Positions 16,391 to 44,372 of a stretch of 64,000 nt of DNA are shown here, in pieces; the stretch's first letter is position 1; the number at the start of each line of letters is the position of its first letter. The notes beneath the pieces were generated by a model. The model ran no database searches. It was given only the letters and a program-made list of their open reading frames with translations, and was not told the DNA's origin. The position numbers were made by a program, and so were the translations under genes. The DNA comes from Prochloraceae cyanobacterium PL24a_bin.78 (GTDB taxonomy: Bacteria > Cyanobacteriota > Cyanobacteriia > Cyanobacteriales > JANQIW01). The stretch lies in NCBI GenBank assembly GCA_028281945.1, contig JANQIW010000081.1, positions 1 through 64,000 on the forward strand, given 5' to 3'.

Positions 16391-16722
16391 GGTAGATGGG
16401 GAAAATGGGAGAATGGGAGATTGGTTAATGGGAGAATGGGAGATGGGGAGATGGGGAGATGGGGAGAATGGGAGATTGGGAGATTGGGAGATTGGGAGTT
16501 TCTTAAGATTTGGGAAGACTTGGGAAGACTTGGGAGAGTCGGGAGAAAAAAAGTGCATCTTATTTACTTATTACTTATTACTTATTACTTATTACTTATT
16601 ACTTAAATCAAGGATGGGGAGAATGGGAGAATGGGAGATGGGGAAGACTTGGGAGAGTTTAGTATATATTCTTATTTCTTACTTTTTACTTAATCAAAGA
16701 ATGGGAAGAATGGGAGATGGGA
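16391..16722. repeat. G-rich GGGAGAT/GGGAGAAT short tandem repeat patch
   Basis: Many GGGAGATG, GGGAGATT, GGGAGAAT and TGGGAAGACT units, in two blocks around a heptamer array. Confidence 0.85.
16564..16605. repeat. Perfect heptamer array (TTACTTA)x6
   Basis: Six consecutive TTACTTA units read directly. Confidence 0.93.
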
Positions 16723-16816
16723 ATAGTAATGATTAATCAAAATTTTATAAAAAAATAATTAATAAAAATATTATAGTATTATTAAGCCAGAAGTATTAGT
16801 TAATCTTTTTTTAATA

Positions 16817-17968
16817 GTGTTTAAAAATATAATTCCTTGTTTTGATTCGGAAGTAAAAGAATGGGGTTTTGAAGCCCGAATTCTACGTTGGTTAACATTA
16901 TTATGGCTAACTGTTGGTTTGATAACTTTGTTTTCTGCTTCTTATCCGGTGGCTGAAGCAGAGTATGGGAATGGATTCCATTATTTCTTTCGACAGTTAA
17001 TTTGGGTAGCAATTGGTTTAACTCTTTTTAATAAAATTGTTCGCGCGCCTCTGAATGATTTTTTAGTCATTTCTCCATTTATGTTTTTTATAATACTGGG
17101 ATTAATTATTTTAACTTTAATTCCGGGAATGGGAACAACAATTAATGGTGCAACTAGATGGTTATCTGTTGGCCCAGTTTTAGTTCAACCATCTGAATTA
17201 CTTAAACCTTTTTTAGTTATTCAATCTGCTAAAATATTTGGTCAATGGAATAAAGTTAAATTTGATAAAAGACTCTTGTGGCTTATAGCTTTCGCTACTG
17301 TTTTGGCAGTTATTCTCAAACAACCTAATCTTAGTACTACAGCTTTGTGCGGAATTAGTCTCTGGAGTATCGCTTTAGCTAGTGGGATTCGTTTGAGATA
17401 TCTTAGTTCAATGGCAGTTTTAGGAATATTGACAGCAGCTATTAGTATCAGTATCCATGAATATCAATTCCGTCGAGTAACATCTTTTATCAATCCTTGG
17501 AAGGATCCTCAAGGAGATGGTTATCAATTGGTTCAAAGTTTAATTGCCATAGGTTCTGGAGGTCTTTCAGGCGCTGGTTTTGGCTTGTCTCAACAAAAAC
17601 TATTTTATTTGCCAATCCAATATACTGATTTTATCTTCTCCGTCTATGCAGAAGAATTTGGCTTTTTTGGCTCGATTTTCTTACTATGTTTGCTGATTAC
17701 TTATGCCACATTTGCTTTGATGGTGGCTTGGAAGTGTAAAGATCGTGTTTCAAGATTAGTTGCTATGGGGGGAATGATTTTTCTAGTGGGCCAATCTATT
17801 TTGAATATTGGTGTGGCTACAGGGGCATTACCTACTACTGGTTTACCATTCCCTCTATTTAGCTATGGTGGTAGTTCGGTTATTGCTAGTTTAGTTTTAG
17901 CGGGTTTATTAGTTAGAGTGGCACGAGAAAGTAATGAGGCTGAAATCGTGCAATTTATCAAGGTTTAA
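16817..17968 (+). CDS. ftsW: FtsW/RodA/SpoVE family lipid II polymerase, FtsW-like
   Basis: Polytopic; GATRWLSVGPVLVQPSELLKP, GLPFPLFSYGGSSV. Confidence 0.85.
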   Translation: MFKNIIPCFDSEVKEWGFEARILRWLTLLWLTVGLITLFSASYPVAEAEYGNGFHYFFRQLIWVAIGLTLFNKIVRAPLNDFLVISPFMFFIILGLIILTLIPGMGTTINGATRWLSVGPVLVQPSELLKPFLVIQSAKIFGQWNKVKFDKRLLWLIAFATVLAVILKQPNLSTTALCGISLWSIALASGIRLRYLSSMAVLGILTAAISISIHEYQFRRVTSFINPWKDPQGDGYQLVQSLIAIGSGGLSGAGFGLSQQKLFYLPIQYTDFIFSVYAEEFGFFGSIFLLCLLITYATFALMVAWKCKDRVSRLVAMGGMIFLVGQSILNIGVATGALPTTGLPFPLFSYGGSSVIASLVLAGLLVRVARESNEAEIVQFIKV

Positions 17969-19164
17969 GCATTTTTTTCGATATATTTTCCCCATAACCA
18001 CAATGGTAATGCTCCTCCAATCCCTAGCAGAATCAAAATGACAACAACCATTCCAAATCTATAAGCAAAAGGTAGGGGTTCCCAAAGAATTCTGTAATAC
18101 ACTGGATCTGAGATGATACTTTCTCCTTGGTTCACTTTAACTACAGTCTCGTATTCTCTTCCTTTTTCTGGAAATGGTGTATTGAAAGTGATTTCATATT
18201 CCCCAAGGGTGGCATTGAGAAAGGTTTCTAAGGCTGTAACAACTTCAGAACTTCTGGCAGAAAATTGATAAATTCCTTTATTTATATCAGCAATTTGTCT
18301 TAGTGTTTTACGATCTGCATCATAACCATATCCAAGAGTATGCACAATAATATTAGGATTTCCCTCTAATATTCCTTGGAGTTGTTGGAAGTATTGTTGA
18401 TCATTTCCCTCTGTATGACCACCATCTGAGAGAAGAATGACAGAAAGTTGTGGTTTACGAGGTTGTTGGGGATGGTCTTCTGGTAATTGAGGATTATTTG
18501 GGTATAAATTTGAGTTAGTTCGATCGTTTAAAAATTGAACTACTTCAATTAAAGGATTATATAAATCTGTAGAAGCGCAGAGATTTTTCTCTTGAGAGGC
18601 GAGATTATCTATAAAATCTCTTAATTTATTATCATTGGCTGTAAAAAAATCATCATTTTTTAAATCATAAGTATATGGAGTGAAATTTATAGGACAACCT
18701 CTTCCAGATGTTACACCAAAAGGCACAATTGCTATAGTAATCTCATCGCTATTTTTGGTTTTTATTTTGTTAATAAAATCACGAATTGCTCGAATTGCTC
18801 CTTTAAATTTAGTAGTTCTAGTGGAATCATTTTCTCTCATACTACCACTCATATCTAATAAAAAGACAATTCTAGCAGGAGGGGGGGCTATTTCCTCAGG
18901 GCTTTTCCAATTTATAATATCAACTTCATCATCGTTCACTAAAACTTGAAAGTTTTCTTCTTTTAAATACAAAGCTGATCTATTTGTTTCTTGTACTTTA
19001 ATTCTTAATTCTACTTTTTCTTCGTCAACTGTTTTATTTTGAATAGTAACTTTTTTTATTTGCCCCCACGCTGGATTAGTTAAACAGCTTAAGATTAACA
19101 TTGATATACTAAGCTTGGGGATCCAAGAAGCGGTTGTAGTAAACAAAGCGATACATTTTTTCAT
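17965..19164 (-). CDS. vWA domain protein with signal peptide and C-terminal TM anchor
   Basis: IVFLLDMSGSMREND (MIDAS DxSxS); C-terminal FGMVVVILILLGIGGALPLWLWG. Confidence 0.85.
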   Translation of the reverse strand: MKKCIALFTTTASWIPKLSISMLILSCLTNPAWGQIKKVTIQNKTVDEEKVELRIKVQETNRSALYLKEENFQVLVNDDEVDIINWKSPEEIAPPPARIVFLLDMSGSMRENDSTRTTKFKGAIRAIRDFINKIKTKNSDEITIAIVPFGVTSGRGCPINFTPYTYDLKNDDFFTANDNKLRDFIDNLASQEKNLCASTDLYNPLIEVVQFLNDRTNSNLYPNNPQLPEDHPQQPRKPQLSVILLSDGGHTEGNDQQYFQQLQGILEGNPNIIVHTLGYGYDADRKTLRQIADINKGIYQFSARSSEVVTALETFLNATLGEYEITFNTPFPEKGREYETVVKVNQGESIISDPVYYRILWEPLPFAYRFGMVVVILILLGIGGALPLWLWGKYIEKNA

Positions 19165-20212
19165 GGTTGATTATTTTATCCTTTACAGTATAAAAAGTGA
19201 TAACATCATTATGTTTTAAGGCCCTATTTTCTCTAGGCCCTAATTTTTCTTCATTAATGGTAATACTAAAATAAGCTTGAGGATTAGGTTTAAGAATTAC
19301 TTTGCGCTCAACTAACTCAAGAAATGCTACATGAATTGGGACTTCTGGTAAACAAATATGTGCCTTTTTATTATTTGGAGAACCAATAATAATTTTTCCT
19401 TGACTTGGAAGTTGAATAGATAATCCTTCTTCTATCCTATTTTCTTCGCTTAAGCCAATGATTTGAAGAAAAGATTTATCAATCCAAGGATAATTAACTG
19501 CTATGGTAGCACTTGAATTTAGATTACTAAAACTATCTCGATATTCAAATCCTGTACCTGCTCTCAAGGCGGCTACAGAACTAGGAGAATTTGTGAAACT
19601 AAATGTTAAACCCAATGATAAGCCTAAAAGAGAAAATCCTATGGGTTCTTCGATTATTCTTAAAACAGGTGATAAATTTCCAAATAAACGAATAATTTCA
19701 AATATTAATGCTGCTATTAAACTTGCTATACCAGCACCTTTTAAACTGTTGATAAATCTTTTTCGGAAACGTTTTTTATTGCCTGCTTCTACACTTTGCC
19801 AACGCCAAGTTAATCCTTCAGATAAACCAACAGCGATTCCTACTAATATCCAACTGAAACTTCTGACAATTGGAGATGGTAAGTTTCCATGTCGGAGTAA
19901 AATTTCAAATAGTATCCCCCCGACTAATCCTAATCCTAATCCTAATCCTAAAGCAATGGGAATGGCTTGTTTGATTCTACGCCAACAAAGTTTGATTCGG
20001 GTTGGGGTGGTAAGCAGGATTTCATTGGATACCATGCCAATAGCTAGGGAGATTGCTACGCAGGGGAAGATGATAATTTCTTTGAGTTGGGCTGTCTCAA
20101 ATAATCCTATGTCGGTAAATAAAAATTCTCCTATATTCCAACCTATTAATGCTGATGTTATTCCAGCTAGTATGTATAAATAGATTCTCATTGATTCCAT
20201 TTGATACCACAT
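19109..20212 (-). CDS. Multi-TM protein with C-terminal FHA-like domain; true start probably at MESMRIY or MRIYLYI
   Basis: Hydrophobic N-terminal half; C-terminal IIIGSPNNKKAHICLPEVPIHVAFLEL...LKHNDVITF; predicted MWYQ start lies inside an inverted repeat. Confidence 0.65.
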   Translation of the reverse strand: MWYQMESMRIYLYILAGITSALIGWNIGEFLFTDIGLFETAQLKEIIIFPCVAISLAIGMVSNEILLTTPTRIKLCWRRIKQAIPIALGLGLGLGLVGGILFEILLRHGNLPSPIVRSFSWILVGIAVGLSEGLTWRWQSVEAGNKKRFRKRFINSLKGAGIASLIAALIFEIIRLFGNLSPVLRIIEEPIGFSLLGLSLGLTFSFTNSPSSVAALRAGTGFEYRDSFSNLNSSATIAVNYPWIDKSFLQIIGLSEENRIEEGLSIQLPSQGKIIIGSPNNKKAHICLPEVPIHVAFLELVERKVILKPNPQAYFSITINEEKLGPRENRALKHNDVITFYTVKDKIINHEKMYRFVYYNRFLDPQA

Positions 20213-20312
20213 CCGGTTTACATACCCCCTTTATTGAAAATAGCTGAATTCTTTGTATAGAATGGATTTCATAGATTTAAAGTTTGTGATTTTTTTAAAC
20301 AGGATTTAGTAT
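20204..20312. repeat. MITE-like element bounded by imperfect terminal inverted repeats
   Basis: ATACCACATCCGGTTTA ... TTAAACAGGATTTAGTAT. Confidence 0.5.
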
Positions 20313-20336
20313 GACTCATCTTTGGAGTATTGATTT

Positions 20337-20411
20337 AACCTCCTGCTATTTTTATTTTACAAGAGGTTTGGTAATATTTCAGCTTAGAGCATCGATGGAT
20401 TAATTTTGCTC
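20337..20411 (-). promoter_or_regulatory. Two-hairpin structure downstream of ORF 20414..21730, copy 1
   Basis: AACCTC...GAGGTT (20337-20368) and GAGCA...TGCTC (20387-20411). Confidence 0.55.
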
Positions 20412-20413
20412 TT

Positions 20414-21730
20414 TTATGTTTTTATGTTTCGTTTGCTGGCTAAAATTTCCCCTAGCTGATTTAATTTTGGATCTTCTGAGAGTGAGAGTTTCTTGTATAA
20501 ATCTTTTTCAATTTGTTTGATAGTTCGTCCACCATAATTTACGATGCCATCTGCTGTTAAATTATGTTTCTCTTGATATCTATAAATTGCTTTTGACCAT
20601 TCTATTGCATATTTTTCTTGAAGTTGTTTATTTGCTTTTTCAAATAAATTTGGATGAATGGCATTTCTCTTTGGTAAATCAGGCTTTTCTAGAACTTCAG
20701 TTATTAAACTTAAAATAGTTGGACGATATTTTTCCTCATATACTTCAACTAAAGTGCAAATGGTATAACGAGTAGATTTACGATGTCCAAATTCGTCTAT
20801 GGCTTTTTGTGGTACATTTCTACTATTAGAAAGAATTAGCTCATTATTTAGGCTGGCATTAATGGTATTATTATTATTTATTTCAGAATCTATAGATGCT
20901 TCTGAGTTAGTATCTTTAGGTTTTTCAGCTAAATTTTCACTTATCATTCTATTGCTTAGATAATTTCCTCCTAAAGCTGCTAAACTAATAAAAGCTATTA
21001 TTCCCGCGATGACTCCAGCAAATATTAGAAGATTAGGCTTTTCGTCATTTGCAGGAGGAATTATGGGCTTTATTGTATGAATATCAATTCCTTTGTTACT
21101 AATGACATGGATGACATTAAAATCTTTACTTTCTAGATGTTCTGCGTTAGATGCCCATGCTACTGGAGTACCATCAAGATTAGATTTACTTTGTGACCAA
21201 GAATGAATATGAGATAAAACTTCTTTTTTTTGAAGGTCTTTGATTAGATATGTTTTAGTCTTAATTAGAGTATTTTTATAATCATTGTCAAGCTTAGAAC
21301 AATCAAAAAGAGGCTTTTGATAGATTATTGTCTCTTTACTTAATTTTCTATTGGCAATACTAGAATAATTATGGTTAGAATTTTCACATTCAGATAATAA
21401 ATTTAAGATACTCCATATACTATCTTTACCTTGAGCTACTAAAATATAATGCAAACACTTATTAGTATTAGCACAACGCATAATCACAGCCACGGCACAC
21501 CAATTAGAAATAATTCTACCAATGATTGTTGGGCGAGTGGGATGGATGGAATTAACACTAAACTGTTTAGCGGTGATGGCTTTTTCTATTTCTTGGGGTA
21601 TGGAGGCAAAAGTCGTATGTTTTCTGGCTTTGCCAATATTATTCCAAGTCCCATCAGGTTTTAATTTTATATTTGTTTCCACAAAAATCTTATGGATTTC
21701 TATTTTTTTAGGGGATGGTAATTGCATCAT
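20414..21730 (-). CDS. Paralog-family protein: conserved N-terminal domain, TM, C-terminal peptidoglycan-binding-like module
   Basis: N-terminus shared with the three ORFs that follow; TM NLLIFAGVIAGIIAFISLAAL; YQEKHNLTADGIVNYGGRTIKQIEKDL. Confidence 0.65.
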   Translation of the reverse strand: MMQLPSPKKIEIHKIFVETNIKLKPDGTWNNIGKARKHTTFASIPQEIEKAITAKQFSVNSIHPTRPTIIGRIISNWCAVAVIMRCANTNKCLHYILVAQGKDSIWSILNLLSECENSNHNYSSIANRKLSKETIIYQKPLFDCSKLDNDYKNTLIKTKTYLIKDLQKKEVLSHIHSWSQSKSNLDGTPVAWASNAEHLESKDFNVIHVISNKGIDIHTIKPIIPPANDEKPNLLIFAGVIAGIIAFISLAALGGNYLSNRMISENLAEKPKDTNSEASIDSEINNNNTINASLNNELILSNSRNVPQKAIDEFGHRKSTRYTICTLVEVYEEKYRPTILSLITEVLEKPDLPKRNAIHPNLFEKANKQLQEKYAIEWSKAIYRYQEKHNLTADGIVNYGGRTIKQIEKDLYKKLSLSEDPKLNQLGEILASKRNIKT

Positions 21731-22134
21731 GGTATTTTAAATTGATATATTTAATTTTGGTGTATGTATTTTTAGTGTATTTAGTGGAGATTAATAAAAA
21801 TATTCTCATTTTCTAAATTTCAAGATTATTAGAAAAAGTAATTTGTAATAATCTTTTATCAAAAGTCTATTAGTTTATTCGATTTTTTACATTAAATAGA
21901 TTTGAGTTAAAATGAGAACTGGAAATATAATAACAAATTTAATTATAAATTAGAAAAATTTTTTTGTTGTAAAGAATTATTATTTTAAAAAATGATCAAG
22001 ATTGATTACTTTAATTCTATAATAGCTAAAAATTAAGTAAACTTACTATAAATAAGATTTTAATAGATGAAATTATAATTTTTTATATGGCTACTTTTAC
22101 ATAGATATTTAAATTTTTAATAAAGTTTTGATTT

Positions 22135-22207
22135 AACCTCCTGCAATTTTAAGGTTACAAGAGGTTGTGCAATGAAGTAGGTAGAGCATTTATAATTAGA
22201 TGTGCTC
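22135..22207 (-). promoter_or_regulatory. Two-hairpin structure downstream of ORF 22213..23757, copy 2
   Basis: AACCTC...GAGGTT (22135-22166) and GAGCA...TGCTC (22184-22207), same layout as copy 1. Confidence 0.55.
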
Positions 22208-22212
22208 ATTAT

Positions 22213-23757
22213 TTAGTGTGTGGTTAAATTTGATGCTAAGTGTTTAAACTCTGGATTTTGAAGCAATTTATTTTTTAAATCGTTCTCAAGTTTTCTAATA
22301 GTCGTCCCACCATAATTAACGATCCCATCTGCTTTGATATTTTGTTTTTCTTGATATTTGTAAATAGCATTAGCCCATTCTATTGCATATTTTAAGCGAT
22401 TTTTTTCTGTTGAATTTTTAAAATATTTGGGATTAATTGCATCTTTTTTGGGCAAGTTAGGTTCTTCAAGAATTTGTGTTATTAAAGATGCTATGATAGG
22501 ACGATGTGAAGGATTAAATTTTTCCACTAAACTACAAACTGTATAACGGGTCGATTTGAAATCACCAAAGACTTTTCCTCCACGTTCTATTTGCTTTATT
22601 CTTTCAGATAATGATGATTGTATACTATCTCTTGTTTGATTGTCGATTAAACCATTGGTATTAGATAATTGATTAGATGCTTGGTATTGAGAAATATCAT
22701 TCTTTAATTCTTGAGCTTGTTGTATTTGATAATCTTTTTCTAATTGTTCTAATTCATTTAACTCTTTATTAGAGATATCAGTTAATGATTTAGAACTCAT
22801 AAGTATTTCTTGAAGTGATGAAACAATAACTTCATGAGGAACTAATTCCCTTGAAGATTGAGTATCTTCTATAATTTTATCCAAAATTTTGGCATTTTTA
22901 GCAAATTCTTCGAGATTTTTTTGTTCTGGATCTGGATCTGGTGCTTTTTCTTGAAGGTTAGGAATATTATTAGATGATGCTGTGACTTGATCTAGACTAG
23001 GTCTTGGAGTATCTACTATTTGTGCTAAAGCATATCCTGCTAATGATAATAATGGTATCATTGTCCAAATAAACTTCTTAGGAGAATAAGTTTTCGCCGG
23101 TTGATCATAAATCTTTTTAGCTTTTTCACTTATGACATGAATTAGGTTAAAATCCTTGCTTACTAGATATTGTGCATTAGAAGCCCAAGCTATTGGTGTT
23201 CCATCAAAATTGGATTTACTATAAGACCAATAATGAATATTAGTCAATGAATGTTTTTTCTCAAGATCGAAGATTAAAAATGGAGTTTCTTTCACAAGTC
23301 TATCTCTATCTTGAGCCTTTAATCCAAAACTATTATAAGGACGATCTTTATAAGATAAGTTAATAACTCTTGAATTATGAGAAGATATAATTGAAGAATA
23401 ACTATCTTTACTGTTATTATCATCTAACCAATTTAATATGCTCCACATACTTTCTGCACCTTCAGTAATAAAAAAGTTATAGGAGCAAAGGTCAGTTTTA
23501 AGATTACGAAGGGCTATACAAACTATTGACCAACCTGATATTATTCGAGCAATAATTGTTGGGCGAGTAGGTTCAATTGATTTCACAAAAAATTTGCCAG
23601 AGGCGATGGAATTTTCTATTTCTTTGGGGATTGATGCCAATGTAGTATTTATGTATATAGGTTTTCCCCAATTATGCCAACTACCATCAGAGTGAGGTTT
23701 AATTTTCATCTCGACAGTAAGTCTGTGAACTTCAACTTTTAGATTCAATTGTGTCAT
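22213..23757 (-). CDS. Paralog-family protein: conserved N-terminal domain, TM, peptidoglycan-binding-like C-terminus
   Basis: VEVHRLTVEMKIKPHSDGSWHNWGKPIYINTTLASIPKEIENSI; YQEKQNIKADGIVNYGGTTIRKLENDL. Confidence 0.65.
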   Translation of the reverse strand: MTQLNLKVEVHRLTVEMKIKPHSDGSWHNWGKPIYINTTLASIPKEIENSIASGKFFVKSIEPTRPTIIARIISGWSIVCIALRNLKTDLCSYNFFITEGAESMWSILNWLDDNNSKDSYSSIISSHNSRVINLSYKDRPYNSFGLKAQDRDRLVKETPFLIFDLEKKHSLTNIHYWSYSKSNFDGTPIAWASNAQYLVSKDFNLIHVISEKAKKIYDQPAKTYSPKKFIWTMIPLLSLAGYALAQIVDTPRPSLDQVTASSNNIPNLQEKAPDPDPEQKNLEEFAKNAKILDKIIEDTQSSRELVPHEVIVSSLQEILMSSKSLTDISNKELNELEQLEKDYQIQQAQELKNDISQYQASNQLSNTNGLIDNQTRDSIQSSLSERIKQIERGGKVFGDFKSTRYTVCSLVEKFNPSHRPIIASLITQILEEPNLPKKDAINPKYFKNSTEKNRLKYAIEWANAIYKYQEKQNIKADGIVNYGGTTIRKLENDLKNKLLQNPEFKHLASNLTTH

Positions 23758-24059
23758 AGATTTTACCTTGCTGTGCTTAATTTAATAATATCAAATAATT
23801 TTACGATTTGATGTTAATTATTAAATTTATCTTTAATTTAATTATGCCGAAAGAATGATAGGTCTAATTATTTTGATTCTATGACATTTTAAAGTTTAGG
23901 TGATTGGTTGTAGACGAAATTTGAGGATGATTTGTTCCTGATTTTTTAATAAATTTTTAGTTTTAAAGTGGATTATCTCTCTAGTAAAAGAAATTGACTA
24001 TATATCATCAAAAACTTATTTTCTTCTATTGACTTGATAATTTTGGGAGATTAAAAATC

Positions 24060-25598
24060 CTACCAAAAAAATTTTTTCTTTTGTTTCAAAGTCAATCCAT
24101 ACAAATTTACTTCTTTATTTTTGAAGTTAGCTTCTCTAAAAATTTCTGCCATAACATAGTTATAACTTACTTGACAAAAATAGGCTGCTAGTTTGTATTC
24201 AAATATTAAATAGAATAAATCGGCAAAAGGTTTATAATAAGAGATTGGTTTCTCAGGTAAATCATCCCATTCTTGGATTAATTTTAACCAAATTATTTCT
24301 CCAAAATTTAAAGCTTTTCTATCTACTTCACTACCTTCTTCTCCTATCATTTCTAAATCAATTTTTATCTGATCTATTAAATGATTTTTGACAGTTACCC
24401 AAGCACCTCCTCCTGTTAATAATATAGTAAAATATTGTGGGGTAATTTCTTCTTTTAGCAATTTTGGCAACATAATATTAAGTCCTGCCATTAATTTTTT
24501 TTCTAACAATTCTTCTTGCTTTTTTGGGAACTTTTCGATAAATTCTAATTGGAATTCTCTAGATTTATTTTGAAAACACTGATTATCTTTTTTATTTAAC
24601 CAAGATAAAAATTCTTTAATTGTATTAGGAATAATCATTGCTCTAATACTTAATAGTTTGGCTATTTTTTCGTTAGCTATTTCGTTATATATAGCCATAT
24701 TTGCACCTTTTTTATTGAAGATTTTCTGCCAATTTTGAATATTTATTTCTTTGTTTTCTAAGGCTTTGGCTATAATATCTATTGCTTGATGGGATATTCT
24801 ATTATCTTGGATTAAATTATCGATGGCATTTTCTATATCTCTGAATTTAAAATTATTACTTCCACCATCATTTTCATTGTTACTTTTATTATTACTTCTA
24901 TTATCATTTGAGGATGAGATATTAGGGGTAAAAATAGTTTGTTTAAGTCGATTAAAAGCTTCATCTGTTGCAGGCTGAATTAAAATAAATTCTTGAGGTT
25001 TAGAGAGGATTTCAATATTATATGCCCAAGATATTTTTTGATTAATGGCGTTTGCTTTTGCTGATGCCCAATAGTTAATGGTTTGTAAATCATAGTTTTT
25101 TTTTGGTTTTATTAAAATGGGAAAAGATTGACTATTTAACCATTGTTGTGTTTGATTATCTACTTGCCCAAACGGTGATTTTTCTGGTTTACAGGGGGTT
25201 GGTTTTCCTACTAATCTTTGATGGGATGGATTGAAAATAGGAAAGATTCCATATTTATCTTTTACTCTTTTTATCAGTCTTAAAATTGTCCACAAACTAT
25301 TAGTGTCTTCACTGAGAAAGTAACGATATACTTCAACATTTCGATCGAAATCATCTTTACCTTTACTAATAATTGCTACTACACACCAAGTTTCTAGAAT
25401 TCTCGCAATTATTGCTGGTTGATTATCGAGTATTTTTTCGATACTAAATAATTTGTTATTGATAGCGGTGGAAACTTCATGGGGAATAGATGCTAAAGTA
25501 CTATTCATATAGTTTCCTGTAAAACCTAGGGAAATCCAACTTCCATCGGAACGAATTTCTGCTTTTATCCCAGTACTAAATTCATGAATATCAACCAT
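24060..25598 (-). CDS. Paralog-family protein lacking the TM and C-terminal module
   Basis: N-terminal and middle regions colinear with ORF 25870..28248, ends just before its TM. Confidence 0.65.
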   Translation of the reverse strand: MVDIHEFSTGIKAEIRSDGSWISLGFTGNYMNSTLASIPHEVSTAINNKLFSIEKILDNQPAIIARILETWCVVAIISKGKDDFDRNVEVYRYFLSEDTNSLWTILRLIKRVKDKYGIFPIFNPSHQRLVGKPTPCKPEKSPFGQVDNQTQQWLNSQSFPILIKPKKNYDLQTINYWASAKANAINQKISWAYNIEILSKPQEFILIQPATDEAFNRLKQTIFTPNISSSNDNRSNNKSNNENDGGSNNFKFRDIENAIDNLIQDNRISHQAIDIIAKALENKEINIQNWQKIFNKKGANMAIYNEIANEKIAKLLSIRAMIIPNTIKEFLSWLNKKDNQCFQNKSREFQLEFIEKFPKKQEELLEKKLMAGLNIMLPKLLKEEITPQYFTILLTGGGAWVTVKNHLIDQIKIDLEMIGEEGSEVDRKALNFGEIIWLKLIQEWDDLPEKPISYYKPFADLFYLIFEYKLAAYFCQVSYNYVMAEIFREANFKNKEVNLYGLTLKQKKKFFW

Positions 25599-25869
25599 CT
25601 TTTAAGTTTATAATATTTGTTAATTTATCTATTTTTATTGTTTAATTCTCTAGTTTTATTCTATCATATTTTTTATTATTTTTGGTTGAGTATCTAAATT
25701 AGATTTTCCTGAAAAAAATAAGTGATAATTAATAATAATCATTTTCAGTTTGATATATTTTATACATTAATTTTTAAGTTGGGAAAATACTAAAACAAAT
25801 AAACCCATAACCTCTCACTTTTAAATTATCTTAAATTTCCATTGTTAATTTTTAGAGAATACACTTATT

Positions 25870-28248
25870 TTATGGTTTTAATTTTTCTTCCATTTCTGTT
25901 TTGATTAAATTAAAAGTATCGTCTCCTCTTTTGATTTTTCCATCAGGATTTTTCATTACCTTCTCTTTATTTTGGTTTTGATATTGATAAATTTGCCCTA
26001 CCCATTTTAATTGTTGTTTTTCTCGATTAATTTTTGTATTTTCTCCTCCTTCTGTAACTACACCTGTATAAGCAATTTCCTTCCATTTTTCTTGTTGCCA
26101 ACCAAGTATTTCTTTAAGAGTATTAATAATATTAATAACATTAATACTTTCGTCTTCGTTTTCTGGATTTAATTGATTTTTCATGTCATTAATAATAGTT
26201 TGAAGTGCTTGACTAGTGTCATCAAATTCATATTCTGTTTCAATATAATTTTTATCAGTTAACTTTTTTTCTAATTTTGATTTAAGAGATTTAGTAGTTT
26301 CGCCTTCAATAATGCCATCAACTTTAAGATTTTGATTGTCTTTTTCTATTATTTTTTCATAATTATAAATAGCTTCTATCCATTCTTTTTTGTTATTTTC
26401 TTCGGTATCATCATTAATAATTGCTTTTGAATTGAGGTTAGAATTTTCTAAAATTGTTTTCATTAAATTAATCATCGATGTTTCAATTAGCTGTTGAGGC
26501 ATTCCATATTCTTCTTCTAATTGTGATATGATATTTTTAGTTTCTTCAACATTAGTTTGATATTGAGCTAAAGCCTGTTGTAATTTTTTTGGAGAAATCT
26601 TATCTTTTTCTCTATTTAAAAACCAAATTGTACCAAAAGAACCAATAGCTAAACAAACTAATCCATAGAAAATTAAAAATAATAATAATACTCTATTATC
26701 CCAAGAAAATTTAATAAATGTAATTAAATTGTTCGCTAATTTTTCTGGTAATAAAATTTTTCTTCTGATGATAATTCCATACAGTTTCCCTTGTTCATCT
26801 TGGGGATTAAACCCTGCTTTTCTAAAAAGTTCTTTACTAACATAATTATTAGTAATCTGGGTAAAATAAGCAGCTAATTTATATTGGTTGAGTGCAACAA
26901 ATAAATCAATAAAAGGCTGATAATAATCATTTTTTCTAATAGTAGCTGTAACCTTTCCCGTCTTAATTAATTTCTCCCAGATTTTTTTACTACACAAAAA
27001 AGATTTGTCATCTATTTGAAGTGGATTTTTGTGTTGACCTATTAATTCTAAATCTTGTTCAACATTTTTAATCAACTTTTGTTTAGTATGTTGCCAAGCA
27101 CCATTGGAATTTAATAACCAAACTATGGATTGAGAATCAACTTTTTTAGTTAATAATTTGCTTAAAATAATATCTATTGCTTTTTCTATTTGAATATTGA
27201 ATGTATCTCTCTGGGTTCCAATTTTTTGAACAAAAGATTTTTGAAATTGACTAGATATTTCTAATAATTCTTGAGAGTTTTTTTGATAAAGCCATTGTAA
27301 AAATTCAGGTATAGTTTTAGGAATAACTATTGCTTGAAGAGTTAATAATCTTACAGTTTGTTTAGTATAAATTGGTTTTTTTATTGCGTTTTCTGCGCCT
27401 TCTCCCTCAAAAAGTTTTTGCCAATCTTGAGATGATATTTGTTTATTTTCTAGAGTATTAATTATTTTTTTTACCCCATCTGAAGAGCAACTAGAAGAAT
27501 TAATCAAAGTTTGAATTGCGGATTTAATACCTTGTAAATCAATATTTGGAGACGCTGGTAAAAGTCTTGGTTGAGAGAGTATTTTATGAATTGAAAGCCT
27601 TGCAGAGTCGTTAGCGGGATGAATAATAGTAAAACTCCATGGATTATCTAATGCTTCAACATTGTACGCCCAAGCTACGGGTGTTTCTATCATTCTTGCT
27701 CTAGCTTTTGCCCAATCATTTATGGTTTCAATATTATCATATGCTGAATCTATTTTTGGTAAAATAGGAGAAGGAAGTCTTGATAACCATTGAAGAAGTT
27801 CTGGATTCAATTGTGCACCTATAATTTCCGTTGGATCTGGAAACTGATTATATTGTCCTATCTTTTTTTTATCTAAAGGGTTAAAAACTGGAAAAATACC
27901 TTTCATCCTTTTTTCTCTAAGTAGATATTTCACCATACCCAAAAGACCATTATTCATTTCACATAAAAAGTATCGATATAAAGATATGGGTCTATTTTGT
28001 TCATCTTGCCCTCGAGTAACTAAAGCTATAACAGACCAATTGTCAATTACTCTCCCAATTATTGCTGGGTCTTCACTAGCTTTTCCTTCAGCCACCTTGA
28101 ATAAGTTATTAGCGATCGCCATTTCCACTACTTCAGGTATAGGATCAATAGTACTATTCATATATTCTTGAGTAAAACCAAGAGAGAACCAGCTTCCATC
28201 TGAGTTAATTTCTGCCTTAATTCCAGTACTAAATTCATGAATATCCAT
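25870..28248 (-). CDS. Largest paralog-family protein: N domain, helical middle domain, TM, tandem peptidoglycan-binding-like modules
   Basis: DIHEFSTGIKAEINSDGSWFSLGFTQEYMNSTI; TM VLLLFLIFYGLVCLAIGSFGTIWFL; two C-terminal DG-containing YxYxxxN repeats. Confidence 0.68.
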   Translation of the reverse strand: MDIHEFSTGIKAEINSDGSWFSLGFTQEYMNSTIDPIPEVVEMAIANNLFKVAEGKASEDPAIIGRVIDNWSVIALVTRGQDEQNRPISLYRYFLCEMNNGLLGMVKYLLREKRMKGIFPVFNPLDKKKIGQYNQFPDPTEIIGAQLNPELLQWLSRLPSPILPKIDSAYDNIETINDWAKARARMIETPVAWAYNVEALDNPWSFTIIHPANDSARLSIHKILSQPRLLPASPNIDLQGIKSAIQTLINSSSCSSDGVKKIINTLENKQISSQDWQKLFEGEGAENAIKKPIYTKQTVRLLTLQAIVIPKTIPEFLQWLYQKNSQELLEISSQFQKSFVQKIGTQRDTFNIQIEKAIDIILSKLLTKKVDSQSIVWLLNSNGAWQHTKQKLIKNVEQDLELIGQHKNPLQIDDKSFLCSKKIWEKLIKTGKVTATIRKNDYYQPFIDLFVALNQYKLAAYFTQITNNYVSKELFRKAGFNPQDEQGKLYGIIIRRKILLPEKLANNLITFIKFSWDNRVLLLFLIFYGLVCLAIGSFGTIWFLNREKDKISPKKLQQALAQYQTNVEETKNIISQLEEEYGMPQQLIETSMINLMKTILENSNLNSKAIINDDTEENNKKEWIEAIYNYEKIIEKDNQNLKVDGIIEGETTKSLKSKLEKKLTDKNYIETEYEFDDTSQALQTIINDMKNQLNPENEDESINVINIINTLKEILGWQQEKWKEIAYTGVVTEGGENTKINREKQQLKWVGQIYQYQNQNKEKVMKNPDGKIKRGDDTFNLIKTEMEEKLKP

Positions 28249-28263
28249 TCCAATTAAATCTCC

Positions 28264-29169
28264 TTATTCAAAATCTAATTGCTTATAGCGATTGCCACTA
28301 CAAAGCCAATAAATGGGAGCAACTAATCCAAAAGGTTTCCAAAGCTCCGGTTTTTTGATAATATAACCACCCTGTCGCGATTGCCCTTTATTGATTAATG
28401 TCATATTTCCCTCTGGAAAACGATTATTAAACACTCCAAAAGCCGATGCCATAAAATACTCTACACTACCTCCTCCTGACTTTTGCCAAGAGTCCAATTT
28501 TTCTTTGACTTTTGGGAAACGAGCTTGGATAACTTTCATGGGTTTGTTTCGATTTGTCCATAATTCAGGATGTTCACATTTGGTCAAAACTAAGGCAATT
28601 CGCTTTGGAGAGTCTTCATCTTCTTTGTTTTTTTCTAATAATTGTAGCAATTCTTCTAAACCATTCCTATAATCGACATCTTTACGGTAAGATAAACCAT
28701 CAATTAATAAGAGAAATCCACTAGCTTGTAAACAATCTTTAATATATTCTTTTAATAATGGATCGTTTGCTTTATGAAGTAAATCCCCAAAAAATTCACC
28801 TGCATAATCCTTACTATTAATGGTCAATGCAACTTGAGATATGCCTTTTCTTTCTCTTGGAGAAGGTTTTAGAATAATACGAAAAGTATAATCTTTAATA
28901 AAAGCTATATTTTGTTCTAAAAACGTAGGTTCAAATACATCCCCTTGTTCTAAAATATTTTTAGCTTTAGCAATTAAATCTGAGCCATCCTCATTCATTG
29001 CTGTAATATATTCTACAATCTTATTATCTCTGTTCACATCAGGCCAACGGGCTAAAGCTGCTAAATAAGTAGTTTTTCCCGCCGCACGATCGCCAATAAT
29101 TCGGATAGATGCTTCTAACTCTTTAACTTCTGATTCTTTATTTTTATTTGCAAAAATTTTATTGAACAT
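28264..29169 (-). CDS. P-loop GTPase-like protein (third of trio)
   Basis: IIGDRAAGKTTYLAALARWP; INSKDYAGEFF; LVLTKCEHPELW. Confidence 0.75.
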   Translation of the reverse strand: MFNKIFANKNKESEVKELEASIRIIGDRAAGKTTYLAALARWPDVNRDNKIVEYITAMNEDGSDLIAKAKNILEQGDVFEPTFLEQNIAFIKDYTFRIILKPSPRERKGISQVALTINSKDYAGEFFGDLLHKANDPLLKEYIKDCLQASGFLLLIDGLSYRKDVDYRNGLEELLQLLEKNKEDEDSPKRIALVLTKCEHPELWTNRNKPMKVIQARFPKVKEKLDSWQKSGGGSVEYFMASAFGVFNNRFPEGNMTLINKGQSRQGGYIIKKPELWKPFGLVAPIYWLCSGNRYKQLDFE

Positions 29170-30013
29170 TTGCGCCTATTTTTTTACCTGTAGTTAACCA
29201 ATAAAGAGGAGCGATTGCATTGTATGGTTGCCATTTATTTTTCTCTCTTAATACTGCCATTTCTAAAGATTTAGTACCAGAATTGATACGATTGGGACGG
29301 GGATCATTATCTCCTAAGACTCCAAAGGTTGAGATTGCATAAAAGCACAAATTTTTTTTAGGAATATTTTTCTCTAAAATTGATTTTGTATAAGGTAAAT
29401 GACGTTGAAATATATCTCGGTCAGGTTCTAATCTTCCAGGCCATAATTCCCCTCGTTCACATTTACTCATAGCTACTGCTACTCGAAAATCTTTAGTTCT
29501 TTGTTTTTCGTCCATTAAGTTAATAAATGCTTCCAAACTTTTACCATATTCTCTATCTACTTTTCCCCACCATTTTGTTAGTAAAATTAAACAACCAAGA
29601 TTGTCTGGTAAAAAACAGTCTTGCCAAAATTCTTCATGTTTAGGTCTAATTCCATAATGAAATTCTTGTTGAGATAAATAGTCTGCTAAATCATCAAATA
29701 TTTCTCCTGGATAATCTTTAACTACTAAATTAATTATTTCTGGTTCTTTTTTTAAACGTTGATTAAGTTCTATATAAAAATTAAATACTGGTAAATTTTT
29801 ATGAGTTGGTATTTTAGTTGCCTCTAAAGATTCTCCTTCTGAAATTAAATCTTCTGCCATATTTTGCAGTTTTTTGGTATCTTCATTTACAGGAGTAACA
29901 TTCAATTGTGTTTTTTGTTTGATTTTAGTTTTCAGTTTAGGCCAATAAGCTAATCCTGCTAAAAATGTAGTTTTGCCTGAGCCACGAGGTCCTATAATTA
30001 CAATATTTCCCAT
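29159..30013 (-). CDS. P-loop GTPase-like protein (second of trio)
   Basis: IIGPRGSGKTTFLAGLAYWP; LVVKDYPGEIF; VAMSKCERGELW. Confidence 0.75.
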   Translation of the reverse strand: MGNIVIIGPRGSGKTTFLAGLAYWPKLKTKIKQKTQLNVTPVNEDTKKLQNMAEDLISEGESLEATKIPTHKNLPVFNFYIELNQRLKKEPEIINLVVKDYPGEIFDDLADYLSQQEFHYGIRPKHEEFWQDCFLPDNLGCLILLTKWWGKVDREYGKSLEAFINLMDEKQRTKDFRVAVAMSKCERGELWPGRLEPDRDIFQRHLPYTKSILEKNIPKKNLCFYAISTFGVLGDNDPRPNRINSGTKSLEMAVLREKNKWQPYNAIAPLYWLTTGKKIGANVQ

Positions 30014-30030
30014 TACTGATTTCCTTTATT

Positions 30031-30795
30031 TTATCTTAAATGACCAGCTAAGTAAATCCAAGGTAATTCTAACAAACTTCTATTTTTGATGCTAGTGATA
30101 AAACATTTGACTATTTCTGTCTTATAATGCTCGTTTATGGTCATAATTTGTTGTTCTATAGGGTAAAAATATTTTTGTTTAATATATGAATTTCGCCTAA
30201 ACCAATTTAGCATAGATCCTTCTGGATTGTATTCTAATAAATTTACTTCTGTGTTTAAATCACAAAACAGATCTGCTTTATTTAAACAAATAAGAATATG
30301 TCGTGCTTCATGACAATTAGAACGAAAAAAACTAACCCAACGTTGAAAACGATAACACCATTGTTCTTGAGTAGGAAATTGCATTGCAACCTCTGTTTTA
30401 AGGTCTGGCAGATCTCGATAAGGAGGTAAAATTAGCATAATACCTTCACTCTTAGACAAATTAGCTAAAATTTTTTGCCACTGTTGAGGATTTTCTTTAG
30501 GCCAATATCGCCGCCAAACTTCCCCCGGAGTATCTACCCAATCCACAGGAATAATCTGAGGACCTGAAGGCAATTTGACTTGCACTTCAAACCGTCGAGT
30601 ACTAGAAACATTTACTCTATCAATATCAGTACCTTTAAAATTACCAAGATCATCGCATAAAATCCGTTTGAGATTATCATAGCTTTGTCCAGAAATATGG
30701 ACCCATTTTTTCAAATCAGGATTAATTAATTCTGTCGCTAGAGCAGTCTTTCCAGTAGCTCGATCGCCGATATAAACTACTCCCAACCCCATCAC
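30031..30795 (-). CDS. P-loop GTPase (first of trio)
   Basis: YIGDRATGKTALA Walker A, DWVDTPGEVW switch II, CLNKADLF (NKxD). Confidence 0.8.
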   Translation of the reverse strand: MMGLGVVYIGDRATGKTALATELINPDLKKWVHISGQSYDNLKRILCDDLGNFKGTDIDRVNVSSTRRFEVQVKLPSGPQIIPVDWVDTPGEVWRRYWPKENPQQWQKILANLSKSEGIMLILPPYRDLPDLKTEVAMQFPTQEQWCYRFQRWVSFFRSNCHEARHILICLNKADLFCDLNTEVNLLEYNPEGSMLNWFRRNSYIKQKYFYPIEQQIMTINEHYKTEIVKCFITSIKNRSLLELPWIYLAGHLR

Positions 30796-42593: not shown

Positions 42594-44372
42594 TTACCAT
42601 AATGGTGGTCCTGATGGTGGTTTGTAACTTGGAGAATTATTAATAGGAGGAGTTTTTCTCCGTGATTGCTCTCTATTAGATTCTCTTCTAATGACTCTTC
42701 TTCTAATAGCTTCTCTTCTCGCTTTTCTTCTCGCGCTTTCTTGTTGCCTTTGAATTTCAACTAATTGATTAATTTTTTGATCAATTTCTTCTATTTGTAT
42801 TTGAGAGTTATTTAGCTGTTGTTGTATTTCATTGTTAAATAAGGTATCTTTGGGAAACTTTTCTAATTTTTCTCCAATTTCTTGCCATTTAACTTTAGCT
42901 TGTCTAAAGTCATTAATAGTTGTAGCAGCTTCCGTTTCTCTTTTACTTTCATTAATTAATGAATTTATTTCTCCTAATTGAGCCTCGGCTTTACGTTCTT
43001 TTTCAAGTCTATCGTCAATTTTTTCTAATTCTTGTTCATAATTTTTTATTGTTTCTTTTCCTTGATCATAGACTTTAACATCGGAAGGAATAGTTTTTAA
43101 TTCACTAATAGCAGTATTTAAATCATTACGACTTACTTCTAACGCTGTAATATTTTGAGCTTCTAAAGCAGTTTCAATACTTTGAATGCCATTTTCTTGA
43201 GCTTCATCATATTTTTCTTGGTATTCCTTATCTTTAGCACAGTTATCAAGTATCTTGCATATTGAAGAAATAGAAGGAGATTTTATGGCAATAAAACTAC
43301 CTCCAAGTAAAAGTATTCCCACCAGAGAGCTAATTATTATAGTAATCGTTTTATTTTTGTTAGATTTTTCTTCAGTTTTGGGATTAACTGCTATCGTTTT
43401 CAATAAATTTTTTTGAGTATTATTTGAATTTGAAACTACTGTTTTAACAGAATTTACTTTTGTTTTTTTCGATTTATATATTGATTCAGAAGGAGAAGCT
43501 ATCATCGTAGACACAGCTTTTCTAGTAAAATTTTGATTAAATTCTCCCAATATTTCACTCGCAGATTGATATCGATCAGCAGGAATTTCCGCCAACATTT
43601 TATTAAAAACTTGAGATAATTTACCACTTATCGTGATATATTGCCCCCAATTCCACTTCATAGATAAACTATCAAAGATCTCATTAGGCTCTCTTCCCGT
43701 TAATAAGACTAAAGCTGTTACAGCTAAAGCATAAAGATCACTACAAGGATAACATTTCCCTATACGAATTTGTTCCGGAGGCGAATAACCTTGTTTTCCT
43801 ACAATCGAACCTGAAACTGAATTACCATCAAAACTAGAACATACTTGGGTCATTACCTCTCTTACAACGCCAAAATCGATGAGCATTACTTTACCATTCT
43901 TAGAAAACATAATATTATCAGGAGAAATATCTCTATGAATAATACTTCTAGAATGAATATAATCTAAAACAGGCAATAATTCTTTTAACCATTGAGTGAT
44001 TTCAGCTTCTTGAAAAACCCGATTTTCTTTTTTAAGATTGTTAAGTAAATCTCTATAAGTTTGTCCATCAATATATTCCTGAACGATAAATAAACCTTCT
44101 GATTGTTCAAAAAAATCTAGAAATTGAGGAATTTGAGGATGACTTAATTGCTGTAGGGTTCGCGCTTCCCGTTCAAATAATTCCCGGCATTTTTCCATAG
44201 CTTCCCCATTGGAAACGCTAGGAAAAAATTCTTTGACAACACAGGGGCGATCATGAAAAAGAGTATCACTCGCTATATAAGTGCGCCCAAAACCGCCTTG
44301 GCCAATAACACGCTTAATCAGATAGCGGTTATTCAATAATGTATCTGAGAGTATTTTTGGTTTCACTATCAA
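42594..44372 (-). CDS. Serine/threonine protein kinase with TM and coiled-coil C-terminus
   Basis: IGQGGFGRTYIASD, IIHRDISPDNIM, LIDFGVVRE. Confidence 0.93.
   Translation of the reverse strand: MIVKPKILSDTLLNNRYLIKRVIGQGGFGRTYIASDTLFHDRPCVVKEFFPSVSNGEAMEKCRELFEREARTLQQLSHPQIPQFLDFFEQSEGLFIVQEYIDGQTYRDLLNNLKKENRVFQEAEITQWLKELLPVLDYIHSRSIIHRDISPDNIMFSKNGKVMLIDFGVVREVMTQVCSSFDGNSVSGSIVGKQGYSPPEQIRIGKCYPCSDLYALAVTALVLLTGREPNEIFDSLSMKWNWGQYITISGKLSQVFNKMLAEIPADRYQSASEILGEFNQNFTRKAVSTMIASPSESIYKSKKTKVNSVKTVVSNSNNTQKNLLKTIAVNPKTEEKSNKNKTITIIISSLVGILLLGGSFIAIKSPSISSICKILDNCAKDKEYQEKYDEAQENGIQSIETALEAQNITALEVSRNDLNTAISELKTIPSDVKVYDQGKETIKNYEQELEKIDDRLEKERKAEAQLGEINSLINESKRETEAATTINDFRQAKVKWQEIGEKLEKFPKDTLFNNEIQQQLNNSQIQIEEIDQKINQLVEIQRQQESARRKARREAIRRRVIRRESNREQSRRKTPPINNSPSYKPPSGPPLW

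Follow-up and report, generated by a model that had tools for sequence, protein, structure and literature searches.

A putative trans-envelope signalling cassette of cyanobacteria built around double-GTPase family proteins

A preliminary description of the window (the whole 64,000-nucleotide stretch analysed here) had placed nine genes in a row on one strand, and an ORF check recovers all nine on the minus strand, spanning exactly 17965-30795. The row and its flanking features are as follows.

16817-17968, plus strand: ftsW, flanking the block, convergent
17965-19164, minus strand: vWA protein with signal peptide, MIDAS-containing vWA domain and C-terminal TM segment (Pfam, TM prediction; sequence inspection for signal peptide and MIDAS)
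19109-20212, minus strand: FHA membrane protein, six TM helices and an FHA fold (AlphaFold, Foldseek)
20326-20375, no strand assigned: 50-nt element with AACCTC/GAGGTT inverted arms just 3′ of P3 (hairpin arms read by eye)
20414-21730, minus strand: P3, shared N-terminal domain (PN), TM segment and peptidoglycan-binding-like tail; putative tandem duplicate of P4 (identity to P4, TM prediction, PG_binding_1 below cut-off)
22213-23757, minus strand: P4, PN, weak TM segment and peptidoglycan-binding-like tail, lacking PM (PG_binding_1 below cut-off)
24060-25598, minus strand: P5, PN and PM paralogue lacking a TM segment, soluble form (identity to P6, AlphaFold)
25870-28248, minus strand: P6, PN, helical PM, TM segment (residues 516-544) and C-terminal tail (ORF, TM prediction, family comparison)
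28264-29169, minus strand: G7, predicted DO-GTPase, second of an adjacent pair (PF19975 and PF19993; GDRAAGKT, DYAGE, TKCE)
29159-30013, minus strand: G8, predicted DO-GTPase, first of the pair (PF19975; GPRGSGKT, DYPGE, SKCE)
30031-30795, minus strand: G9, predicted divergent third DO-GTPase-like P-loop GTPase (hhalign to G7/G8; GDRATGKT, DTPGE, NKAD)
From 31009, plus strand: gcvH, flanking the block on the other side, divergent

Gaps are 17 bp between G9 and G8, -11 bp between G8 and G7 and 15 bp between G7 and P6; spacing among P3-P6 is 201-482 bp, and the FHA and vWA genes overlap by 56 bp. A promoter and terminator scan of the cassette gave results near shuffled expectation, which does not settle the operon structure.

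Three P-loop GTPase-like proteins had been proposed, with a link to the double-GTPase (DO-GTPase) families, and both points were borne out. Judged by profile scores, G7 and G8 are DO-GTPase family members: they reach 37.7 and 35.5 bits against Pfam DO-GTPase1 (PF19975, cut-off 27), G7 reaches 33.8 bits against PF19993 (cut-off 27), and G8 was recovered by a PF19975 profile search of its own genome. G9 gave no above-cut-off match in the Pfam scan. It aligns to G7/G8 (hhalign 97.6%, E=3e-12) with its motifs intact, and on this alignment is a divergent homologue of the pair. A column check of the TRAFAC-type motifs found DYxGE/DTxGE in nearly all members of the GTPase family, and our reading is that its glutamate probably corresponds to the published conserved glutamate of the Walker B region of DO-GTPases. 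G8 and G7 are neighbours in nearly all loci compared; of the published systems, 38% have two adjacent paralogues. Searched against solved structures, the GTPases returned generic P-loops only.

The four P proteins do share an N-terminal domain, as had been suggested. All pairs are related: P3 and P4 are 44-46% identical, P5 and P6 38% over 514 columns, and cross-pair identities are 24-29% with E values of 1e-16 to 1e-23. A second copy of the 50-nt element lies behind P4 (22124-22173) and is 84% identical to that behind P3; the presence of the element behind both genes is evidence that P3 and P4 arose by tandem duplication. The claim that three paralogues carry a TM segment followed by peptidoglycan-binding-like modules stands in its first half, with TM segments in P3 (230-259), P4 (weak, 230-248) and P6 (516-544) and none predicted in P5. 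Its second half holds only in part, since the window copies fall below the PG_binding_1 cut-off of 23 bits (P4, E=2.5e-4, 21.6 bits; P3, 15.7 bits) and P-family homologues match strongly (E=7.5e-15). The P6 tail sits where homologues carry these modules.

PN matches no Pfam family, GAP1-N1/N2 included; TagF_N (PF09867) likewise gave no Pfam match in the P proteins. The confident P5 AlphaFold model (pLDDT 91.5) has a strand/helix order that agrees with longin. Its best Foldseek matches are to TagF and are weak (E=0.065, prob 0.66, top-match TM-scores at most 0.28), with further weak matches to longin domains and FLCN-FNIP complexes. TagF has itself been likened to a longin domain (PMC3325213). 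The modelled similarity of PN to TagF/longin is weak and is without sequence support. Isolated Pfam matches of P proteins below cut-off (Sa_NUDIX, Suv3_N, Mhr1 and similar) and a Cmr4 match in the PDB search (E=0.5) were discarded as noise.

The FHA membrane protein has six TM helices within residues 1-207 and an FHA-fold domain at about 250-360. Its model (pLDDT 88) confirms the FHA-like assignment: the top Foldseek matches of the domain are FHA domains (prob 1.00, TM to target up to 0.74). A sequence match to the Ki-67 FHA domain (E=0.003) was retained because the structure model confirmed the fold. In a column check the canonical phosphothreonine-binding Arg/Ser (GR ... SxxH) were missing, G-S replacing G-R in 39/40 sequences and P-x-H standing in place of S-R-x-H. 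The last gene encodes, as first described, a vWA protein with signal peptide and TM anchor (362-393); Pfam VWA/VWA_2 are above cut-off and the MIDAS is intact (DMSGS ... SDG). The proposed envelope-anchored layout was upheld.

The core order G9-G8-G7-P-FHA-vWA recurs in dozens of cyanobacterial loci, which excludes a chance arrangement. It is complete in 34/45 well-flanked loci, P lies directly downstream of G7 in nearly all, and P tails and copy number vary between loci; this conserved synteny contradicts the concern that homologues might not be co-located elsewhere. All loci returned by a genome scan (80/80) were cyanobacterial. The cassette, scored by G9, occurs in 24/386 cyanobacterial genomes and is patchily spread (16/143 genera), and several loci are carried by plasmids. 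In fuller copies it is followed by lipoproteins, ARC6-IMS and a serine hydrolase, and by a vWA/FHA/PP2C/Ser-Thr-kinase module, which in this genome lies on another contig (C129). Neither the window nor the searched C129 neighbourhood has the lipoprotein and serine-hydrolase sensor genes, so the part that senses may have been lost, or may differ, in this genome. A kinase in the window (42594-44372) was rejected as a part of the system, matching the accessory kinase generically only (33% over the kinase part). Co-occurrence of cassette and module is near-obligate: 18/18 sampled genomes having the module's VWA3 orthologue also carry the GTPase cassette, and all 18 fall within the 24/386 G9 genomes (hypergeometric 4e-26, unlinked cases included, a p-value that ignores genome kinship).

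The cassette resembles the DO-GTPase/GAP1 systems but differs from them in its third component. As those systems are described in the relevant sections of Kaur et al. (2020; PMC7159879), including an actinobacterial kinase/PP2C/vWA theme, the shared features are DO-GTPases in pairs, with a large partner gene immediately 3′ of them, TM and wall-binding parts, and associated vWA, kinase and PP2C genes. Relative to the same sections, the cyanobacterial cassette lacks a recognisable GAP1, an FNIII component and GTPase zinc ribbons, whereas an FHA membrane protein and a third GTPase are constant members of it; moreover, cyanobacteria are missing from the phyla given there for GAP1 systems. The suggested GAP1 link found no support at the sequence level. 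Pfam scans of 21 and 45 P family members gave no GAP1 match, so that P does not appear to be a GAP1 member, and no above-cut-off GAP1-N1/N2 was found in the 386 genomes, searches in which a control genome was positive for GAP1-N2 and no control was positive for GAP1-N1. The core and accessory proteins scanned gave no Pfam match to a GASH (N1) or FNIII-repeat (N2) protein, and the plasmid records searched held no GAP1-N2 or TagF_N. A DO-GTPase also occurs in gammaproteobacterial Psp operons, with a proposed membrane-stress role (PMC11237479), where partners and gene context differ.

Taken together, the cassette looks like a cell-envelope signalling system that has yet to be described, a relative of the 'double-GTPase' systems found in other bacteria. 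That the whole is a horizontally mobile cyanobacterial trans-envelope signalling system based on DO-GTPases, with mechanism steps that we infer, is a reading to which we give even weight. Wall state or a surface ligand would be read by the P peptidoglycan-binding tails and the outward-facing vWA, joined in relatives by outer lipoproteins and a beta-lactamase-like serine hydrolase. Across the membrane, the signal would reach the cytoplasmic N-domain of P, a putative longin/TagF-like adaptor, which would bind the G7/G8 pair as longin/roadblock proteins do with their GTPases, G9 being a third switch. The GTP-dependent complex may then contact the six-TM FHA scaffold protein-to-protein, not by phosphothreonine binding, and output would run through the separately encoded vWA-FHA-PP2C-Ser/Thr-kinase module, setting Thr phosphorylation of targets. 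More tentatively, we suggest a plasmid-spread bacterial GTPase-pair/longin switch. Its longin/TagF-like adaptor, bearing a peptidoglycan-binding tail, would link the state of the wall to the kinase/PP2C module by way of the DO-GTPase pair and a membrane FHA scaffold of non-canonical type, and GAP1 proteins elsewhere would then belong to the same structural class.

The preliminary description had left signalling, conflict and wall surveillance side by side, and trans-envelope signalling is the better fit. A conflict (defence) role is possible, if doubtful: the GTPase pair would be a threshold switch in an anti-phage or anti-plasmid system and P a counterpart of GAP1, sensing invasion and setting off an effector. 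The DO-GTPase family was defined from such systems (PMC7159879), and the patchy distribution, plasmid carriage, variable P tails and copy number, and the position of P directly downstream of the GTPases, as for GAP1, are all in keeping with this. However, the P proteins give no GAP1-N1/N2 match, the core is without an effector domain, and PADLOC calls no defence system, with weak P-loop matches on G8 only. The associated genes are moreover a recurrent sensor and phosphorylation set, where conflict systems typically have variable effectors, and the published DO-GTPase/GAP1 systems are themselves predictions.

Roadblock/longin proteins are known to pair with GTPases, MglA/MglB being an example, and the cassette could on this model regulate polarity, motility or filament growth, its vWA and peptidoglycan-binding parts locating it at the wall. 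The longin-like topology predicted for the P N-domain and the membrane and wall parts would suit such a role, and complexes such as MglA-MglB and Ragulator/FLCN-FNIP with the Rag pair share with the predicted arrangement two GTPases and a longin-like partner. DO-GTPases belong to another TRAFAC family. We think such a role unlikely, given that the cassette occurs in only 24/386 genomes and on plasmids, unlike core motility or division genes, and that adjoining motility genes were not recognised. Least probable is post-translational control of a contractile or secretion machine, after the T6SS threonine-phosphorylation pathway (PpkA, PppA, Fha, TagF). Here too a kinase, a PP2C, an FHA protein and a TagF/longin-like protein make up one co-occurring set, with the FHA and TagF/longin-like proteins as neighbours, and TagF binds Fha directly (PMC5995506). 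Yet the T6SS pathway has no GTPases, while GTPases and vWA proteins are central to the cassette; its core FHA is membrane-embedded and non-canonical, the TagF fold similarity is weak, and no secretion-machine gene was recognised in the scanned neighbourhoods.

The DO-GTPase systems in the literature that we found are known from prediction alone. The cassette offers a cyanobacterial version that is compact and conserved, its parts list defined and its third component distinct, and its partner module is genetically separable, co-occurring with it even when unlinked. The whole set lies on a 36-kb plasmid of the standard strain Trichormus variabilis ATCC 29413, and the proposed GTPase switch is thus directly testable.

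All nine ORFs that the preliminary description placed at 17965-30795 were recovered on the minus strand, in the order G9, G8, G7 (GTPases), P6, P5, P4, P3 (paralogues), FHA and vWA, flanked by ftsW on one side and gcvH on the other. Spacing is tight from G9 through G8 and G7 to P6 (17, -11 and 15 bp), the FHA and vWA genes overlap by 56 bp, and the wide spacing described for the paralogue section holds, with gaps of 201-482 bp. At 30% GC, the cassette is richer in AT than the neighbouring apc and gcv genes on both sides (37-38%). Between the apc genes and ftsW, an ORF at 16413-16736 built from repeated MGDWEMGRWGDGE-like words is probably a non-coding repeat tract.

One genome per species was scanned, yielding 123 encoding stretches, the best 80 of which are all cyanobacterial. 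Gene neighbourhood is conserved: 34 of the 45 loci with enough flank carry the complete G9-G8-G7-P-FHA-vWA order; most incomplete loci had a part missed via distance limits or rearrangement. The FHA/vWA overlap is kept in nearly all loci, and P is the variable element (1-3 copies, with PN, PM or tail present or absent). G9 was found in 24/386 sampled cyanobacterial genomes (16/143 genera), and the cassette is plasmid-borne in Trichormus, Tolypothrix, Nostoc and Gloeothece. This patchy spread, together with the plasmid locations, points to horizontal transfer. The set of genes for GTPases, lipoproteins, vWA, PP2C and kinase takes up about half of the 36 kb plasmid B of Trichormus variabilis ATCC 29413 (L171), making this plasmid a convenient test bed.

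Relatives carry further genes behind the cassette: first those for lipoproteins of two kinds and a further ARC6-IMS kind, for a serine hydrolase of the beta-lactamase family and for a membrane vWA protein. Next come genes for a protein of 127 aa, for VWA3 (a vWA protein of the cytoplasm), for an FHA protein with a zinc ribbon, and for a PP2C phosphatase and a Ser/Thr kinase. None of these lipoprotein-to-kinase genes occurs in the window. The last part of this second module lies on another contig of the same genome:

C129:55170-63326 (L183 8170-16326): 131-aa protein, VWA3 (65% identical), zinc-ribbon FHA protein, PP2C and two Ser/Thr kinases, in that order

At E<1e-100 in the 386-genome sample, 18/18 genomes with a VWA3 orthologue fall within the 24 G9 carriers (genome-level hypergeometric 4e-26, genus-level 1e-17, both figures ignoring relatedness). 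Moreover, cassette and module are on different contigs in the window's genome, G149 and G176, and ~0.4 Mb apart in G250, thus their link is not merely physical. This co-occurrence is the strongest functional clue of the analysis. The window also encodes a 592-aa Ser/Thr kinase-like ORF (42594-44372, minus strand), whose likeness to the accessory kinase is generic only.

G7 and G8 scored above the cut-off for Pfam DO-GTPase1, and G7 also matched DO-GTPase2. G9 matched neither family above cut-off, but hhalign paired its profile with that of G7/G8 across 200 columns (97.6%, E=3e-12), and G9 keeps motifs G1, G3 (DTPGE) and G4 (NKAD). Separate from the cassette, a large cyanobacterial protein at L055 (10205-13294) fuses a DO-GTPase domain to a GUN4 tetrapyrrole-binding domain, and another at L056 (10048-13722), counted as DO-GTPase, is matched by G7/G8 by BLAST only.

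The four paralogues do share an N-terminal domain (PN), and three of them (P6, P4 and P3) have the TM and tail attributed to them; P6 and P5 carry the helical domain PM. Tails of P homologues elsewhere contain clear peptidoglycan-binding modules (E=7.5e-15; for the CtpB PG-binding domain, E=2.6e-4). P3 and P4 are 44-46% identical, and just behind each of them lies a 50-nt element whose arms read AACCTC/GAGGTT (20326-20375 and 22124-22173; copies 84% identical). The two genes are thus a tandem duplicate, with the element as part of the duplication.

PN matched no Pfam family, GAP1 and TagF included, when 21 and 45 family members were scanned. In the confident P5 model (pLDDT 91.5) PN runs strand-strand-helix-strand-strand-strand-helix-helix, the order expected of longin domains. 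The four best Foldseek matches of this model were TagF structures, counting PA0076, the TagF of P. aeruginosa, but they were weak (E=0.065 or worse). TagF reportedly resembles the Sec22b longin domain (PMC3325213). Our best current guess from the model is that PN is longin/TagF-like.

The vWA protein has a vWA domain above the Pfam cut-off, a DxSxS MIDAS motif and the predicted anchor, a single C-terminal TM. The confident FHA membrane protein model (pLDDT 88) comprises six TM helices and a beta-sandwich whose top Foldseek matches are FHA domains (probability 1.00), upholding the FHA-like assignment. Its phosphothreonine-binding positions are altered, and therefore it is probably an FHA-fold scaffold rather than a classical phospho-reader.

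The T6SS threonine-phosphorylation pathway has similar working parts (kinase, PP2C, FHA and TagF), and there TagF binds Fha (PMC5995506); we note the resemblance and do not claim membership. A closer parallel is offered by the DO-GTPase/GAP1 systems, which (PMC7159879) have in common with the cassette the GTPase family, a downstream partner gene and TM plus wall-binding parts, one actinobacterial theme including kinase, PP2C and vWA genes. A search for the parts that define those systems, GAP1 and FNIII/GASH, found none of them. We therefore file the cassette as a variant of these systems and not a member. The accessible DO-GTPase literature, supplementary tables apart, contains no description of the cyanobacterial arrangement, which may be listed in those tables.

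Parts, membrane segments, synteny and co-occurrence are established. In the mechanism we propose, wall or surface would be sensed outside, and inside the longin-like PN would act as an adaptor binding the GTPases. The DO-GTPase pair may serve as the switch, the membrane FHA as scaffold and the kinase/PP2C module as output.

Divergent loci (e.g. L053, L058, L161 and L167) form a second subtype of the cassette and have, downstream of vWA, a 127-aa protein and then a 537-672 aa AAA+ ATPase that replaces the vWA/FHA/PP2C/kinase module; one upstream gene of L058 resembles a radical-SAM activase. On the Tolypothrix plasmid (L172, 1701-6065), a MoxR ATPase and GUN4-domain genes lie near the GTPase cassette, an arrangement recalling MoxR-vWA conflict systems.
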